From Olsenella massiliensis (lineage in GTDB: Bacteria; Actinomycetota; Coriobacteriia; Coriobacteriales; Atopobiaceae): a stretch of 64,000 bases of DNA. Position 1 is the first letter of the stretch; the number at the start of each line of letters is the position of its first letter. The stretch lies in assembly GCF_001457795.1 (NCBI RefSeq), contig NZ_LN898211.1, positions 441,038 through 505,037 on the forward strand, given 5' to 3'. The translations under genes were made by a program, and so were the position numbers. Of the stretch, positions 104 through 55,006 are shown piece by piece. Below the pieces are notes generated by a model. That model saw only the letters and a list, made by a program, of their open reading frames with translations. It ran no database searches and was not told the origin of the DNA.

Positions 104-1078
104 ATGGCAGGGACAAGAAGCTACTATGACGTGCTCGGCGTGAAGCGTGACGCCACTGCCGACGAGATCAAGCGCTCGTTTCGCAAGCTCGCCGCCAAGT
201 ATCACCCTGACGCGGGCGGCGACGAGACAAAGTTCAAGGAGCTCAGCGAGGCCTACACCACGCTCTCGGACCCCGAGAAGCGCAAGGAGTACGACCAGCT
301 GCTCATGTTTGGCGGCATCCCCGGCCCCGACTTCGGCGGCTCCGGCGGGCGCGGCGCGCGGGGCTACACCTACACCACCAGCGCCGGCGGGGCCGACTGG
401 TCCGAGATCTTTGACAACATCCGCAACGGCGACGGCGCCTTTGGCGGCTTTGACTTCTCGTCCATCTTTGGCGGGCAGGCAGGCGGCGCCGGGAGGGCCG
501 GTCGTCCCGTCAAGGGCTCGGACCTCTCCATGACCATCGAGGTGAGCGCCGACGAGGCGTTCAAAGGCACGATGCGCAAGGTGAGCTACACCATCCCCTC
601 GACGGGGGAGCGCCAGTCCATCAACGTCAAGGTGCCGGCCGGCGCCGTGGACGGGGGCAAGCTCCGCTATCGGGGGCGCGGCGAGTACGGCGCGAGCGGT
701 GGCGCGCGAGGCGACCTCGTGGTCCTCACGCGCGTCGCCGAGCACCCCATCTTCAAGCGCGACGGCGCCGACGTGAGGATGGAGCTGCCCGTCAGCGTGT
801 ACGAGGCGGCCCTGGGGGCCAGCGTCAAGGTGCCCACGCCCGAGGGGATGGAAGTGCTTCTCAAGGTGCCGGCAGGCACTCAGGACGGCAAGACCTTCCG
901 CTTTCGCGGCATGGGCGCCGCGGACGTCAAGCACAAGGGGAGCAAGGGTGCGCTGTACGTGACCGTCAAGGTTCGGGTCCCCACGCGGCTCTCGTCCAAG
1001 GAGCGCGAGGCGCTTGAGGCGCTGCGGGCGGCCGACGAGCGGGCCTACAGGAAGGACGTGGAGAGCTATGGCTCGTAG
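104..1078 (+). CDS. dnaJ: DnaJ-type co-chaperone without zinc finger (CbpA/DnaJ2 class)
   Basis: A 324-residue Hsp40 that should stimulate DnaK ATPase activity and deliver unfolded clients. The J domain occupies about residues 6-68 and contains the essential HPD motif in YHPDAG. A Gly/Phe-rich linker (about 75-140) follows, then two beta-sandwich C-terminal domains. The four CxxCxGxG zinc-binding repeats of classical DnaJ are absent and no cysteine is seen in the protein, so this is the CbpA/DnaJ2 type. The start is the ATG at 104, ten bases after a strong ribosome binding site AAAGGAGG (86-93). The stop overlaps the start of hspR by 11 bp, showing co-transcription with the repressor. Confidence 0.93.
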
Positions 1079-1523
1079 GGACGAGGCGGAGCAGCCCATG
1101 GGCGGGCGCGCCGACAGGGACAAGCCCCTCTACATGATCAGCGTCGCTGCCGAGCTCACGGGCATGCACCCCCAGACCCTGCGGGTGTACGAGCAGAAGG
1201 GCCTCGTGAACCCGGGTCGGTCGCGCGGCAACACGCGGCTCTACTCCCATCACGACATAGAGCGGCTCAACCTCATCAGCAAGCTCACGGACGAGGGCAT
1301 CAACCTTGCCGGCGTCGTGCGCATCCTGGACATGCGCGAGCGGGCCGAGGAGCGCAATCGCCAGATCGACGAGCTGCGCGCTCGCGTGCGGGAGCTTGAG
1401 GACGACATTCACGAGCTGCGCACGCGCGAGCGGATCACGGCCCTGGCCCGCTACGACGGCTCGGACCCCGAGCAGGTCATGCGCGGGCTGCTCATGCAGG
1501 GCAAGGGCGACGAGGTCCGCTAG
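1068..1523 (+). CDS. hspR: HspR, MerR-family heat-shock repressor
   Basis: A 151-residue MerR-family regulator. The winged-helix domain is at about residues 20-85, with the recognition region [19 protein letters not shown] and the [10 protein letters not shown] segment typical of HspR. A coiled coil rich in Arg, Glu and Leu follows (about 88-130). In Streptomyces and mycobacteria HspR uses DnaK as co-repressor and controls dnaK, clpB and related genes. The start at 1068 lies inside the end of dnaJ, with GGAG at 1060-1063. An upstream in-frame ATG at 1014 would lie deep inside dnaJ and lacks support. A likely target motif lies before clpB, hsp20 and groES, but that HspR binds it is inference. 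Confidence 0.9.
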
Positions 1524-1637: not shown

Positions 1638-1667
1638 TTGTATGGTGCAAGTCATATTATCTACTAT
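1638..1667 (+). promoter_or_regulatory. Candidate clpB promoter
   Basis: A TTGTAT -35 (1638-1643) and a TACTAT -10 (1662-1667), 18 bp apart, lie in an AT-rich island inside otherwise GC-rich DNA. This gives clpB its own start, with a leader of about 120 nt. The candidate heat-shock operator begins seven bases past the -10. Confidence 0.5.
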
Positions 1668-1673
1668 AAACAC

Positions 1674-1716
1674 ACTTAGATTTTGAATATCCTCCTTCGA
1701 TCTGGGAAAACTAAGT
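1674..1716 (+). promoter_or_regulatory. Candidate heat-shock operator upstream of clpB
   Basis: ACTTAGATTTT (1674-1684) faces AAAACTAAGT (1707-1716), an imperfect inverted repeat with one inserted base, placed over the expected transcription start. The left half recurs before hsp20 (7268-7278) and, on the opposite strand, before groES (52849-52859). It does not match the textbook HAIR (CTTGAGT-N7-ACTCAAG) or CIRCE elements. Which protein binds it is unknown; HspR, encoded just upstream, is the first candidate. Confidence 0.55.
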
Positions 1717-1795: not shown

Positions 1796-4459
<2,664 letters not shown>

Positions 4460-7002: not shown

Positions 7003-7401
7003 GAGCACCTCCGGAGTCGCGGCGGGCCTTCTCCCGCCGCGCGCCACGCCTGGGTCACGGGCGCACCTAGCAGGCGCGCCTGTCATCTGCACCTATCATA
7101 GAGCAGCCGCGTCGGGCGACATAGCCCCGGACGCTGGCGAGCTCATGAGAATCACGGACAAGCCATCGTCCTTGCGCGTCTCGTCCGTTGCCCTGCGCGC
7201 ATCTTCAGGAGGCGCCGTGGCTCGCTGCGCTTTAAACAATACCCCGAGCAATATCTTATATAGTATGACTTAGATTTCATGAGTATCTTACAGTAATAAA
7301 ACCTTTCCCAAACGTATAAATTTATCGTGTGAGGGAACAATAGACATGTGCGACAAGGCGTTCGTCCAAAGAACGCCGCATAGGCAGAAAGGATGGTCAT
7401 C
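7003..7401. other. Divergent intergenic region before hsp20
   Basis: This 399-bp gap separates the tail-anchored gene (minus) from hsp20 (plus). Its right half is strikingly AT-rich (7231-7320) and holds the hsp20 promoter and stress motif described separately. I see no ORF with a ribosome binding site. The left part (7020-7200) is ordinary GC-rich DNA with nothing I can name. Confidence 0.6.
7252..7284 (+). promoter_or_regulatory. hsp20 promoter region with heat-shock motif
   Basis: A TATAGT or TAGTAT -10 (7259-7266) is followed at once by ACTTAGATTTC (7268-7278), the motif also found before clpB and groES. ACTTA (7268-7272) and TGAGT (7280-7284) form a 5-bp inverted repeat with one mismatch and a 7-bp spacer. 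A clear -35 is not visible. The placement over the start site suits a repressor. Confidence 0.5.
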
Positions 7402-7827
7402 ATGTCTGGATTGATTCCGTACGATCGCTACGACAGGGCTTTGCGCAGGGCGTTCGATCCGTTTGACTCGTTCTTCTCGACGCCGCTCGCAGCGCTTTCG
7501 ACCGATGACAGCTTCAAGATGAACGTCGAGGACGCGGGCGACGCCTACGTCGTGAGCGCCGAGCTGCCGGGCGTCAAGCGCGAGGAGATTGACGTCGAGC
7601 TCAACGAGGGGCGTCTGTCGATCTCGGTCGAAAAGAAGGAGACCGAGGAGGAAAAGGGCAAGAACTACCTGCACAAGGAGACGACGGAGTGGCGCGCCAG
7701 CAGGGGCGTATACCTCAAGGACGCCGCGACGTCCGGCCTGACGGCCAAGTTTGAGAACGGCGTGCTGAACGTCAACATTCCCAAGCAGGAGGAGAAGGCC
7801 AACGTCACCAAGGTCACCATCGACTAG
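7402..7827 (+). CDS. hsp20: Hsp20/alpha-crystallin small heat-shock protein
   Basis: A 141-residue ATP-independent holdase. The alpha-crystallin domain spans about residues 33-130, with the conserved AELPGVKREEIDVE segment and the GVLNVNIPK signature near its end. The N-terminal arm is short and carries FDPFDSFF. The C-terminal extension carries an I-x-I-like VTKVTI. ATG 7402 is chosen over ATG 7393 because GAAAGGA (7387-7393) is eight bases upstream of it. The leader contains the stress motif shared with clpB and groES, so heat induction is likely. The gene is monocistronic, closed by the hairpin at 7885. Confidence 0.93.
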   Translation: MSGLIPYDRYDRALRRAFDPFDSFFSTPLAALSTDDSFKMNVEDAGDAYVVSAELPGVKREEIDVELNEGRLSISVEKKETEEEKGKNYLHKETTEWRASRGVYLKDAATSGLTAKFENGVLNVNIPKQEEKANVTKVTID

Positions 7828-50118: not shown

Positions 50119-52617
50119 TCAGTTTACGTGCTTTGTACCTGCGATGATACGTTCGATTAATTCCTGTCGGCTGTGAATGGAGAGCTTTCTGTACCCGTCG
50201 CGCCGGGCCGAGTTGACGGTGCCGCGGGAGTAGTTGAGCTCCTCCGAGACCTGCCCGCCGCTCCTTCCCCGCGCCGTCAGGAGAAGCACCTCCGACTCCG
50301 TCTTGCTTAGACCCTGAGACGCCAAAAAGCCAAGCATGCGTCGCCGGCGCTCGTCATTGGCTCCTTGTCCGAGCCCAAGGTCCTTAGCGCGCGCATCGTT
50401 GGAAAGGCGCACGCAGTATGCGCCCACCGAAAGCCCCGCGAGCGTGAGTGAGATCCCCAAAAGAATGCTGCCGGCGGATATTAGGCCGGTCTTGCCGCCC
50501 AAGAACGCCAGGGCCACCTCGTTGTAAAGAAGGCGGTCGCAATAGGCGTTGATGGCAACGGCGCCTGCGAGCATGCCCGCGCCCAGGCAGGGAAGAACAA
50601 GCCGCCTGGCGTCGTGCGCGTCTGGTGGCGTGGCGGCAGGACCCGCCGCCGCCCCCGCGACAAGTGCGACGGCAGCAAGGGCAAGGCGAAGGCTCATGGC
50701 GCCTTGTGCTCCGAGCGCGAGGGCGCCGCCCGCGACGGAGGCGCAGAGCATCTCCCAGCGTGCGCCCCTCATGAGATACGCCGAGCTCAGGCAGAGGGCA
50801 ATCAACAGCGGCATGAGGAGCTCCAGGGTCGAGAAGGAGCCTGTCGCCCGCCATGCCTCTTCCATCACAAAGCCCACGGTCGCGGCGATTGCCAGAGGAG
50901 CGACGTCAATGCCCCGGACGGGGTCTGCCGTGCGGAGGCGCTCATCTGCAAGGGGCATGGCCCCGGCGGCGGCAAGGCCCAGGCAGCCGACGGTGAGGGC
51001 GGGACGCAGGGGTGGCAGCACCTGCGAGAGCGACACGAGCGCCAAAGGCAACGACAACAGCGGCAGCGCAAAGACGTCACCATCGCCCTCGGCCGCACGC
51101 GTCGGCCTTGCGGTGGGCGTGCCGCGCGAGGGTGACGTCACGCAAAAGAGAATCGCAAAGAGGCAGGTAGGAAGGGCAAGCAGGGGATGAGCGGGGTAAC
51201 CGTTCATGCAAGACGCCTCAAGGTGGGAGAGTGCGATGGCGCACAGGCCCGTAGCCACAAAGACGCTCCTGAAGACGCCGCTTGCGACCCTTTGCGCCGG
51301 ACGTTCCCTGGAGCTGACGTGCGCGACGACCAGACGTCCAAGGCTCGCCGACGCAAGGAGTCCCATGCCAAACGAGAGGACGAGCGTCTGCCCGGCACCC
51401 CATGGACGCCCGGTCGCCCCCAGTGGCAGCAGCAGGAGGGCAAGCAGGGAGGTCCGCGCAACGGGCAGCCATAAACGCGCCGGCGCCGGAGGGGACGTCT
51501 CTTCCGCGCCCGTGTCAACAGACCTGGCTGAGAGCGACGCGAGCTCAGCGGCACTGCTCACTCCCAGCTTTTTGTAGGCGCGGCTCAAGAGGACGCGCGT
51601 CGTCGAGGGCGCCTTGCCCAGCCGCTCCGCGATCTTGGAAATTGCCGCACCCCCAAGCAGCAGCTCCGCGCACGCACGCTCGCCGGGGGTAAGGCCGCTC
51701 AGGTCAAGGGTGACGTCGGCCTCCACACGGCTGCCGGCAGGCGTGGCCTTGAGCGTGGCGGGACGCCACAGCATGAGCGCCATGGCGCAGGCGGTCGCGA
51801 GGGCGCACGCGATGACGGCAAGGGGGGCGTCACGTGGCAGCGTCGTCGAGATGGGCGCAAGCCTGGCGGCGCAGCTCCACAGAAGCACGCCCGTTCCCAG
51901 GCACGCGAGGGCGAGGCGCCGCAGCCTCTCCGGCACGCGCCTGCTCATGAGAAGGACGATTCCCAGCGAGAGCACAGGAAGGGCGAACATCCCAAACGGC
52001 GCCGACGCCTGGTCCGTCTGACCCAGGAGGCCAAGAGGCTGACGAAGGAGTCCCGCCACGGCGAGCGTCAGCAGCGTGGGCGCAGAGGACGCCTCCTCCT
52101 TCGCGCGGGTGTCGTCCACGTTGTCCCCCGGGCCCACGTCCTCGGCCGCCCCATCCGTCCAAAGTCGGGAGAGCAGCATCGCGCAGAGGGTCAGGGGCCA
52201 GTAGCCGACGGTGGTCTTGATCAGGTGCGGGAGACGCAAGCCTAGCTCGAGAAGGTCGTAGGCCGTTCCGGTCGCCCTGGCTGCGGCATGCTCGAGGAGG
52301 GGGAGGGCACAAAACTCGGACACGACGTACAGCAGGGCTAACGCGAGCGCCGCGACCGTCAGATACCGTGCCGGTCGCGTCCAGTCGTGCGAGCGTGCGC
52401 CGCTCGCCACGCCGACGGGCGCCGCGCCCGCCAGGAGTCCCAGGGCAATGCAGGAAGGCGCGCTGGTCAGGCCGGGCACCTGGAGCGAGTACGCCGAGCA
52501 CGCAAAGAAAGGAGTGGAAAAAAGCACAAAGAAGCCGACGAGCGCCGCCTGGCGCCAGATGCCGGGACGTTCCGTCAAGACGCAGGCCCTCCGCTTGATT
52601 GCCTGCCACAACGTCAT
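50119..52617 (-). CDS. Tandem-duplicated membrane LuxR-family regulator
   Basis: An 832-residue protein with two successive modules. Module 1 has about eight to ten hydrophobic spans (residues 24-285), then a LuxR-type HTH (about 309-363: LTPGERACAELL, ISKIAERLGKAPSTTRVLLS, YKKLGV). Module 2 repeats the plan: spans at about 385-720, then a second HTH (about 769-825: LSKTESEVLLL, SGGQVSEELNYSRGTVNSA, YRKLSI). Coriobacteriia carry many membrane LuxR regulators with one such module; two in one chain is unusual. ATG 52617 is preceded by GAGGGGGCGAGG; an upstream frame to 52743 exists. It probably controls the ABC block downstream on the same strand. Confidence 0.85.
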   Translation of the reverse strand: MTLWQAIKRRACVLTERPGIWRQAALVGFFVLFSTPFFACSAYSLQVPGLTSAPSCIALGLLAGAAPVGVASGARSHDWTRPARYLTVAALALALLYVVSEFCALPLLEHAAARATGTAYDLLELGLRLPHLIKTTVGYWPLTLCAMLLSRLWTDGAAEDVGPGDNVDDTRAKEEASSAPTLLTLAVAGLLRQPLGLLGQTDQASAPFGMFALPVLSLGIVLLMSRRVPERLRRLALACLGTGVLLWSCAARLAPISTTLPRDAPLAVIACALATACAMALMLWRPATLKATPAGSRVEADVTLDLSGLTPGERACAELLLGGAAISKIAERLGKAPSTTRVLLSRAYKKLGVSSAAELASLSARSVDTGAEETSPPAPARLWLPVARTSLLALLLLPLGATGRPWGAGQTLVLSFGMGLLASASLGRLVVAHVSSRERPAQRVASGVFRSVFVATGLCAIALSHLEASCMNGYPAHPLLALPTCLFAILFCVTSPSRGTPTARPTRAAEGDGDVFALPLLSLPLALVSLSQVLPPLRPALTVGCLGLAAAGAMPLADERLRTADPVRGIDVAPLAIAATVGFVMEEAWRATGSFSTLELLMPLLIALCLSSAYLMRGARWEMLCASVAGGALALGAQGAMSLRLALAAVALVAGAAAGPAATPPDAHDARRLVLPCLGAGMLAGAVAINAYCDRLLYNEVALAFLGGKTGLISAGSILLGISLTLAGLSVGAYCVRLSNDARAKDLGLGQGANDERRRRMLGFLASQGLSKTESEVLLLTARGRSGGQVSEELNYSRGTVNSARRDGYRKLSIHSRQELIERIIAGTKHVN

Positions 52618-53015
52618 CCTCGCCCCCTCGTGCCATCGTGTGCTGTCGGCCCCGTCAGATTCTGACGCCATCAGTATACGGCCCGACAGCGACGTTCTCT
52701 CAGACTCCGCCGCGCCGTGCGCCGCTCGATTCCGCGCGGCCAAATGTCTCTCGACCCAGCGCGCGTCTCACGGCCGTGCGGGCCCCCGCAGGCCCTGTAG
52801 GCCGCGCGCAAAACCATGAAGAAATTGTCCTGCTTCTTGGGACAACAGAAAATCTAAGTCATTGTCTGAAGATTTCTTATCTCGTGGGTGTATAGGGCTC
52901 TCGTGAGGGGTACTATTCTCAACGGTAGAGAGGCGAAGATTCCCAGCCTTGCGCCTGGGGTCAACGTCGTCGCAGGAAACGCGCCTGGCGGCGCACAAGA
53001 AGGAGGTTCTTGAAC
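52618..53015. other. Divergent region between the LuxR gene and groES
   Basis: This 398-bp gap is GC-rich to about 52800 and AT-rich from 52805 to 52925. It contains the stress motif at 52849-52859 and the groES leader with AGAAGGAGG at 52999-53007. No ORF with a ribosome binding site is seen. I could not settle a -35/-10 pair for groES. Confidence 0.55.
52849..52878 (+). promoter_or_regulatory. Candidate heat-shock operator upstream of groES
   Basis: AAAATCTAAGT (plus 52849-52859) is the exact reverse complement of the ACTTAGATTTT motif before clpB, and shares ACTTAGATTT with hsp20. A partial second arm AGATTTC follows at 52870-52876. No CIRCE element is present, so this replaces it as the visible candidate control site of groES-groEL. 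Confidence 0.55.

Positions 53016-55006
<1,991 letters not shown>

Follow-up and report, generated by a model that had tools for sequence, protein, structure and literature searches.

Results

A repeated 10-mer precedes heat-shock genes

The window, by which we mean the whole 64-kb stretch of the Olsenella massiliensis genome analyzed here, carries dnaJ, hspR, clpB, hsp20 and groESL (Table 1). The order dnaK, then dnaJ and hspR, all on one strand, is kept in relatives; the dnaK promoter itself lies ~3.2 kb before the window. Like the by-eye entries of Table 1, dnaK, grpE and htpG were named from their translations. That the window encodes the repressor HspR, as a first-pass annotation of this DNA had proposed, was confirmed by a score above the curated cut-off of the corresponding protein model. 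The same model exceeds its cut-off in 81 of 89 genomes of the class and gives some match in 88; the O. massiliensis genome holds two matches, the second one weaker. The assembly has a single N shortly before dnaJ (L001:5038), and an 874-aa ORF at 50119-52743 (-) lies divergent from groES.

Table 1. Genes, candidate operators and likely promoter elements in the window
Feature	Coordinates	Strand	Basis
dnaJ	104..1078	+	Named by eye, translation
hspR, MerR-family repressor, wing motif GNTRL58YS	1068..1523	+	NCBIfam NF047375, 120.7 bits (cut-off 105); alignment
Candidate HspR-type operator of clpB, ATCTACTA-TAAACAC-ACTTAGAT	1659..1681	+	Exact ATCT-N11-ACTTAGAT; conserved in relatives' clpB promoters
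10-mer at clpB (right half-site plus TT)	1674..1683	+	Exact match
Likely -35 of clpB, TTGAAT, abutting the operator	1683..1688	+	Letters; placed by comparison with relatives
Likely -10 region of clpB, GGGAAAACT (in relatives, commonly GGGAAtACT or GGGAACAAT)	1704..1712	+	Weak -10 match
clpB	1796..4459	+	NCBIfam TIGR03346, over cut-off
Candidate HspR-type operator of hsp20, ATCTTATA-TAGTATG-ACTTAGAT	7253..7275	+	Exact bipartite match
Possible additional HAIR-like site of hsp20 (degenerate), CATGAGT-N7-AGTAATA	7278..7298	+	Own copy fits relatives' pattern only partly
Likely -10 of hsp20, TATAAA	7315..7320	+	GTATAAA in relatives' consensus, weakly conserved
hsp20	7393..7827	+	NCBIfam small heat-shock families, E down to 1.6e-26, below their cut-offs
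Candidate HspR-type operator of groESL, reversed, ATCTAAGT-N6-CTGAAGAT on + strand	52852..52873	-	Spacer one base shorter
Likely -35 of groES, GTGTAT (relatives TTGTAT, TGGTAT)	52888..52893	+	Sequence, relatives
Likely -10 of groES, TACTAT, 17 bp after -35	52911..52916	+	Sequence, relatives
groES	53016..53306	+	Named by eye, translation
groEL	53366..55006	+	Named by eye; ORF; homologues in 37/41 own-family genomes

The annotation had drawn attention to a 10-mer, ACTTAGATTT, upstream of three heat-shock units, and all three of its positions are correct: 1674-1683 (+), 7268-7277 (+) and 52850-52859 (-). The window holds no further exact copy, and the largest count in 100 shuffles of it was 0. 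Across the whole genome (1,818,711 bases, 13 contigs) there are exactly three exact copies, those before clpB, hsp20 and groES, and none of the 10-mer read backwards. Scattered copies in coding DNA, or loss of the motif in relatives, had been named as grounds for rejecting it; the exact copies in the genome do not lie dispersed through coding sequence, and the motif is kept upstream of the orthologues. With one mismatch allowed, the genome gives 15 matches (the three exact ones and 12 others) against 10 for the control, so that single-mismatch copies are near background. One of these 12 is a reverse copy at 1707-1716 and one lies at htpG; the remainder were judged by sequence context, some also by ORFs. 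Two of the single-mismatch copies stand 55 bp apart (C12:244585 and 244640; L003:2086 and 2141), before an ORF of unknown function (L003:2181-2627).

We rejected the reverse copy as a partner of the copy at 1674: the gap is 31 bp, and CTAAGT occurs at that place in 0 of 57 clpB promoters of relatives. It sits within the GGGAAtACT-like promoter stretch of clpB.

The 10-mer is probably half of an HspR-type operator

Upstream regions of relatives point to a different partner. In them the 10-mer recurs in an extended form, AAATCTnAnn-N7-ACTTAGATTT, with a second half at a fixed distance, and the 10-mer is thus probably one half of an HspR-type operator whose complete, predicted site is an inverted repeat. 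The full site spans 23 bp, ATCTnAnn-N7-ACTTAGAT, and has the geometry of HAIR, the operator of HspR, which reads CTTGAGT-N7-ACTCAAG (PMC6102357, in excerpt). By its letters the motif is, as the annotation had stated, neither HAIR nor CIRCE; the architecture of HAIR is nonetheless present, namely two 7-base halves around N7, A- and T-rich flanks, and an inner AGT-N7-ACT in the strong half. It had escaped notice because the left half was taken for a -10 element: the TATA-like sequence that the 10-mer was said to follow directly at clpB and hsp20 is instead the left half-site of the operator.

The loci of relatives that we compared are the best 80 of 183, chosen by similarity to the window's HspR; they include Olsenella, Atopobium, Lancefieldella, Parafannyhessea and others, and many are metagenome assemblies. 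ACTTAGAT is present in 55/57 of their dnaK, 58/60 of their clpB and 26/32 of their hsp20 upstream regions, some of these exact matches not being the main site (L082, L122 and several minus-strand hsp20 regions). Regions without an exact copy differ by one mismatch each, save one clpB region with three. The left half-site is degenerate. Where a region holds a single [AG]CTTAGAT, [TC]CT stands at N7 in 53/55 dnaK, 54/56 clpB and 17/22 hsp20 regions, which gives 124 of 133 such regions when pooled, as in an inverted repeat whose half-sites are 7 bases long; outside N7, at spacings 4-6 and 8-10, [TC]CT occurs once in all. After dereplication the N7 left half is found in 28/29 dnaK, 47/49 clpB and 22/27 hsp20 regions, the best N7 left half deciding among copies in regions that had more than one. 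The hsp20 promoters may carry a second HAIR-like site, TGAGT-N7-RCTNAGA, which matches 14/32 hsp20 regions of relatives versus 0/57 dnaK and 1/60 clpB regions.

The candidate operator is concentrated before five heat-shock genes

The three units to which the annotation assigned the motif do carry it, and the set was incomplete: the dnaK promoter, beyond the edge of the window, contains the element too, as ACTTAGATAA. An exact search of the whole genome for ATCT-N11-ACTTAGAT returned four matches, those of dnaK, clpB, hsp20 and htpG, the last at G000:C10:56982-57004 (L005:1983-2005), on the other strand and 87 bp before the htpG start; a genome of the same genus (L276) also has the operator at htpG. 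At up to two mismatches the bipartite pattern gives 38 matches in the genome against 12 for the control.

A search of the genome and its relatives, of the kind that the annotation had recommended, found the operator concentrated before dnaK, clpB, hsp20 and groES, and also htpG. In 121 genomes of the same family the bipartite pattern has 245 matches, palindromic ones being counted on both strands, and is present in 113 of the genomes; the reversed pattern has 1 match. We looked at 60 of these places, 44 taken in the order listed and another 16 picked by hand: all 44 of the former and 12 of the latter lie at most 450 bp before dnaK (15), clpB (16), groES (13), hsp20 (11) or htpG (1). Of the other four, two fall within coding sequence, a third belongs to an hsp20-like promoter where a contig ends, and the fourth (L283:2501) precedes an apparent DUF308/HdeD-like membrane protein gene, perhaps an additional member of the regulon.

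At groES the site is reversed in 13 of 13 fetched places, as it is at htpG. Among the own-family genomes surveyed, 30 of 30 groES upstream regions match one of three forms of the pattern at one mismatch or fewer, and 6 or 7 bases separate the half-sites.

Likely promoters lie downstream of the candidate operators

The likely promoters of clpB, hsp20, groES and dnaK are placed downstream of the operators (Table 1). For groES, the strict pattern NNNT[AT]T-N14-GGG-TANNAT is found in 15/30 upstream regions of relatives, and in the dnaK regions of relatives GTATA is conserved, with GGG after it. We considered, and rejected, a reading of the GGGAAC downstream of the operator as the -35 of an ECF sigma factor: on inspection, GGGAAC-N17-CGTT can be read at the dnaK of O. 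massiliensis and was not seen at its clpB or groES.

Some relatives carry both CIRCE and the HspR-type site at groES

HrcA gave no match in the O. massiliensis genome (97% complete), and the best match to CIRCE (TTAGCACTC-N9-GAGTGCTAA) at its groES has 8 mismatches. HrcA was found in 8 of 121 genomes of the family; in the sample of the class it is present in 0/13 f1, 0/13 f3 and 12/12 f2 genomes, f2 presumably being Eggerthellaceae and f3, the sister family, Coriobacteriaceae. We examined groES in six of the eight HrcA-bearing family genomes, G019, G046, G061 and G073 having been fetched for their groES operator pattern and G012 and G035 without such a choice (G022 and G041 were left out), and each of the six has both CIRCE (0-2 mismatches) and an HspR-type site. 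CIRCE without a detected HrcA was found in a further genome, G081 (88% complete), which belongs to the genus of four of the six. As judged from these sites, joint control of groES by an HspR-type operator and HrcA exists, and it may have preceded the loss of HrcA. The groES regions with both sites (L238, L240, L241, L243, L244, L251 and L157) possibly represent a living intermediate of a regulon take-over.

Half-site letters change in a graded series

Canonical HAIR has no match in the genome at 0 or 1 mismatch and two at 2 mismatches; at up to three mismatches its 98 matches are fewer than the 128 of the control. Within the phylum, the operators form a graded series: CTTGAGT-N7-ACTCAAG; CTTGACA-N7-ACTCAGA; CTTGACA-N7-ACTTAGA; TCTnAnn-N7-ACTTAGA. 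The intermediates, CTTGACA-N7-ACTCAGAT and CTTGACA-N7-ACTTAGAT, are found at dnaK in other families of the Coriobacteriia, with a -35-like TTGACA inside the left half and a TATA-like box after the right half. Among 20 genomes from outside the class, 12 have ACTCAAG or ACTCAAC, three (families f33 and f35) RCTTAGA and one ACTCACA; in the other four no site was recognized or the dnaK start was not reached. The operators at dnaK in the own and sister families no longer contain TTGACA, and transcription there seems to start from a new promoter further downstream (class loci L165-L204 compared with L043-L122).

HspR wing residue 58 changes in step with the operator

HspR residue 58, in the wing (GNTR-L58-YS), is R in 12/12 rows of the HAIR type and L or M in 117/117 rows of the other group, although 23 of the 80 own-family rows among the 117 stop short of the dnaK promoter and were assigned the family's operator by assumption. 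Across residues 15-104 (90 in all), only 23 (M versus V/L/I) and 58 (L/M versus R) fully separate ACTnAGA rows from ACTCAAG/C rows. The operator labels used for this comparison and for the tree were set by hand from a strict-pattern scan, which gave no operator for 19 L58 rows, most of them own-family members with a more degenerate left half. Exceptions are the L58 genomes L195, L196 and L203, outside the own family, and the R58 genomes L209, L216 and L217, in which no operator was recognized; L224 (L58) has ACTCACA, L168 (M58) has ACTAAGG, and in L208 (R58) an additional site ends in GCTCAGA.

Across the phylum, the half-site change from ACTCAAG to ACTnAGA and the change from R58 to L/M mark the same split of a DnaK tree, which was built quickly and came with long-branch warnings. 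The co-change of residue and operator is a single event and therefore only suggestive of a causal role for residue 58; for the same reason a test on pairs cannot reach significance.

The nearest solved relatives of HspR by sequence are GlnR and TnrA. The GlnR operator is TGTNA-N7-TNACA, also with N7 spacing, and the GlnR wing residue that corresponds to HspR position 56 sits in the minor groove (PMC9249791, in excerpt). From the alignment with GlnR and these excerpts, residue 58, two residues further along the strand, is expected to have the same orientation. The same excerpts describe the GlnR wing contacts as nonspecific and report that exchange of a wing residue barely altered affinity (PMC9249791), and in metal-sensing MerR proteins 23 of 32 correlated protein-DNA pairs fall in the recognition helix, the remaining ones being divided between helix 1 and the wing (PMC5045206, in excerpt). 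Both sets of data weaken the case for a leading role of residue 58.

Discussion

We consider it very probable that the motif is an HspR operator in recoded form, that it governs an enlarged regulon and that HspR is its binder. Binding, repression and the heat response are what we infer from the computed sites, their geometry, their conservation and their co-distribution with HspR. In other actinobacteria, DnaK helps HspR on its operator. Here an HspR dimer, probably assisted in this way, would occupy the 23-bp inverted repeat and block RNA polymerase at the adjoining promoter, and heat would draw DnaK and HspR off so that the genes come on. The likely -35 would follow the operator directly at clpB and probably at dnaK. 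At groES the operator would end 14 bp before the likely -35; being clear of that element, it would permit simple occlusion only with an extended footprint. An extended footprint of this kind, 70-80 bp, is reported for Helicobacter pylori HspR (PMC6102357, in excerpt). In the left half-site the letters of HAIR would have been recoded from CTTGAGT through TCTGAGT to TCTAAGT. The regulon would comprise dnaK-dnaJ-hspR (with grpE, by eye), clpB, hsp20, groESL and htpG, so that HspR would also serve groESL, which elsewhere (Bifidobacterium and others) is under HrcA/CIRCE.

The annotation had left two options, a changed operator for HspR or control by another repressor; the evidence supports the first and has no need of the second. 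Under the second, a different repressor would have taken over the heat-shock regulon and would bind ATCTnAnn-N7-ACTTAGAT, leaving HspR a remnant or bound elsewhere. The departure of the site from the letters of HAIR, the failure to find canonical HAIR in the genome and the second, weaker HspR match would all suit such a replacement. We nevertheless think it unlikely, since the site shares the 7-N7-7 geometry and A/T flanks of HAIR, intermediates occur in sister lineages, HspR is retained above cut-off in nearly all genomes of the class (81/89, with a match of any kind in 88) and its wing differs in step with the operator.

A promoter element for a stress sigma factor, rather than a repressor site, would account for a motif close to heat-shock gene starts in many genomes, and yet we find this highly improbable for an inverted repeat whose N7 spacer is fixed, which is reversed at groES (13/13 places) and htpG and which, in other families, sits in the spacer of apparent TTGACA...TATAnT promoters (by eye). 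That a canonical HspR merely meets weak HAIR sites changed by ordinary drift, their common letters reflecting the shared ancestry of a few promoters, fits a change that is one event on the tree but is scarcely credible when the new letters are common to five different genes, conservation is higher in the half-site than in the DNA flanking it and the genome holds fewer HAIR matches than the control.

For the recoded HspR operator we can offer a history only tentatively, as possible rather than probable. In the common ancestor of the Coriobacteriia and its sister lineages, R58 to L/M may have recoded the outer base pairs of the operator. Later, in the ancestor of the own and sister families, the left half-site may have been freed from the -35 as the promoter of dnaK shifted downstream; the site, now more symmetrical, could then have spread to clpB, hsp20, groESL and htpG through a stage of joint HspR/HrcA control, kept in some relatives, that made HrcA dispensable.

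Here the change in a repressor's operator can be traced through a class in which intermediates survive, and the case also suggests that one repressor absorbed the regulon of another (HrcA/CIRCE). With so few candidate residues, the change in recognition can be tested by single amino-acid swaps. The operator consensus is usable for heat-shock regulons of gut and oral bacteria in which a search for HAIR fails. Among the open-access papers searched for HspR in Coriobacteriia, none by its title reports a recoded operator; for ACTTAGAT with heat shock, no title among those listed concerned heat-shock control in actinobacteria, and nothing was found in these papers on HspR with RegPrecise in Actinobacteria.

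Comparison with known systems

The nearest counterpart is HspR/HAIR of Streptomyces, Bifidobacterium and Helicobacter, which has in common with the present system hspR encoded with dnaK, a 7-N7-7 inverted repeat, dnaK and clpB as targets, the inner AGT-N7-ACT (here in the strong half) and A- and T-rich flanks; the Bifidobacterium HAIR, AAAsTTGAGysw-N6-CTCAAsTTTT, has the same AAA...TTTT flanks (PMC9004370, in excerpt). The two differ in half-site letters (CTTGAGT there, TCTAAGT here), in wing residue 58, which is L/M here instead of R, and in the additional presence of the site here at hsp20, groESL and htpG. In H. pylori, HspR acts at groESL too, jointly with HrcA (PMC6102357, in excerpt). 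HrcA/CIRCE likewise has groESL as a target, in Bifidobacterium (PMC9004370, in excerpt) as in many other bacteria, whereas the groES of O. massiliensis lacks CIRCE and bears an HspR-type site, and HrcA was not detected in the genome. GlnR/TnrA, also of the MerR family, resemble the present system in N7 operator spacing and in the wing motif GNxRL[YF]S; unlike it, they are nitrogen regulators with other half-site letters, and the Arg that reads a half-site G in GlnR aligns with Gln36 of HspR.
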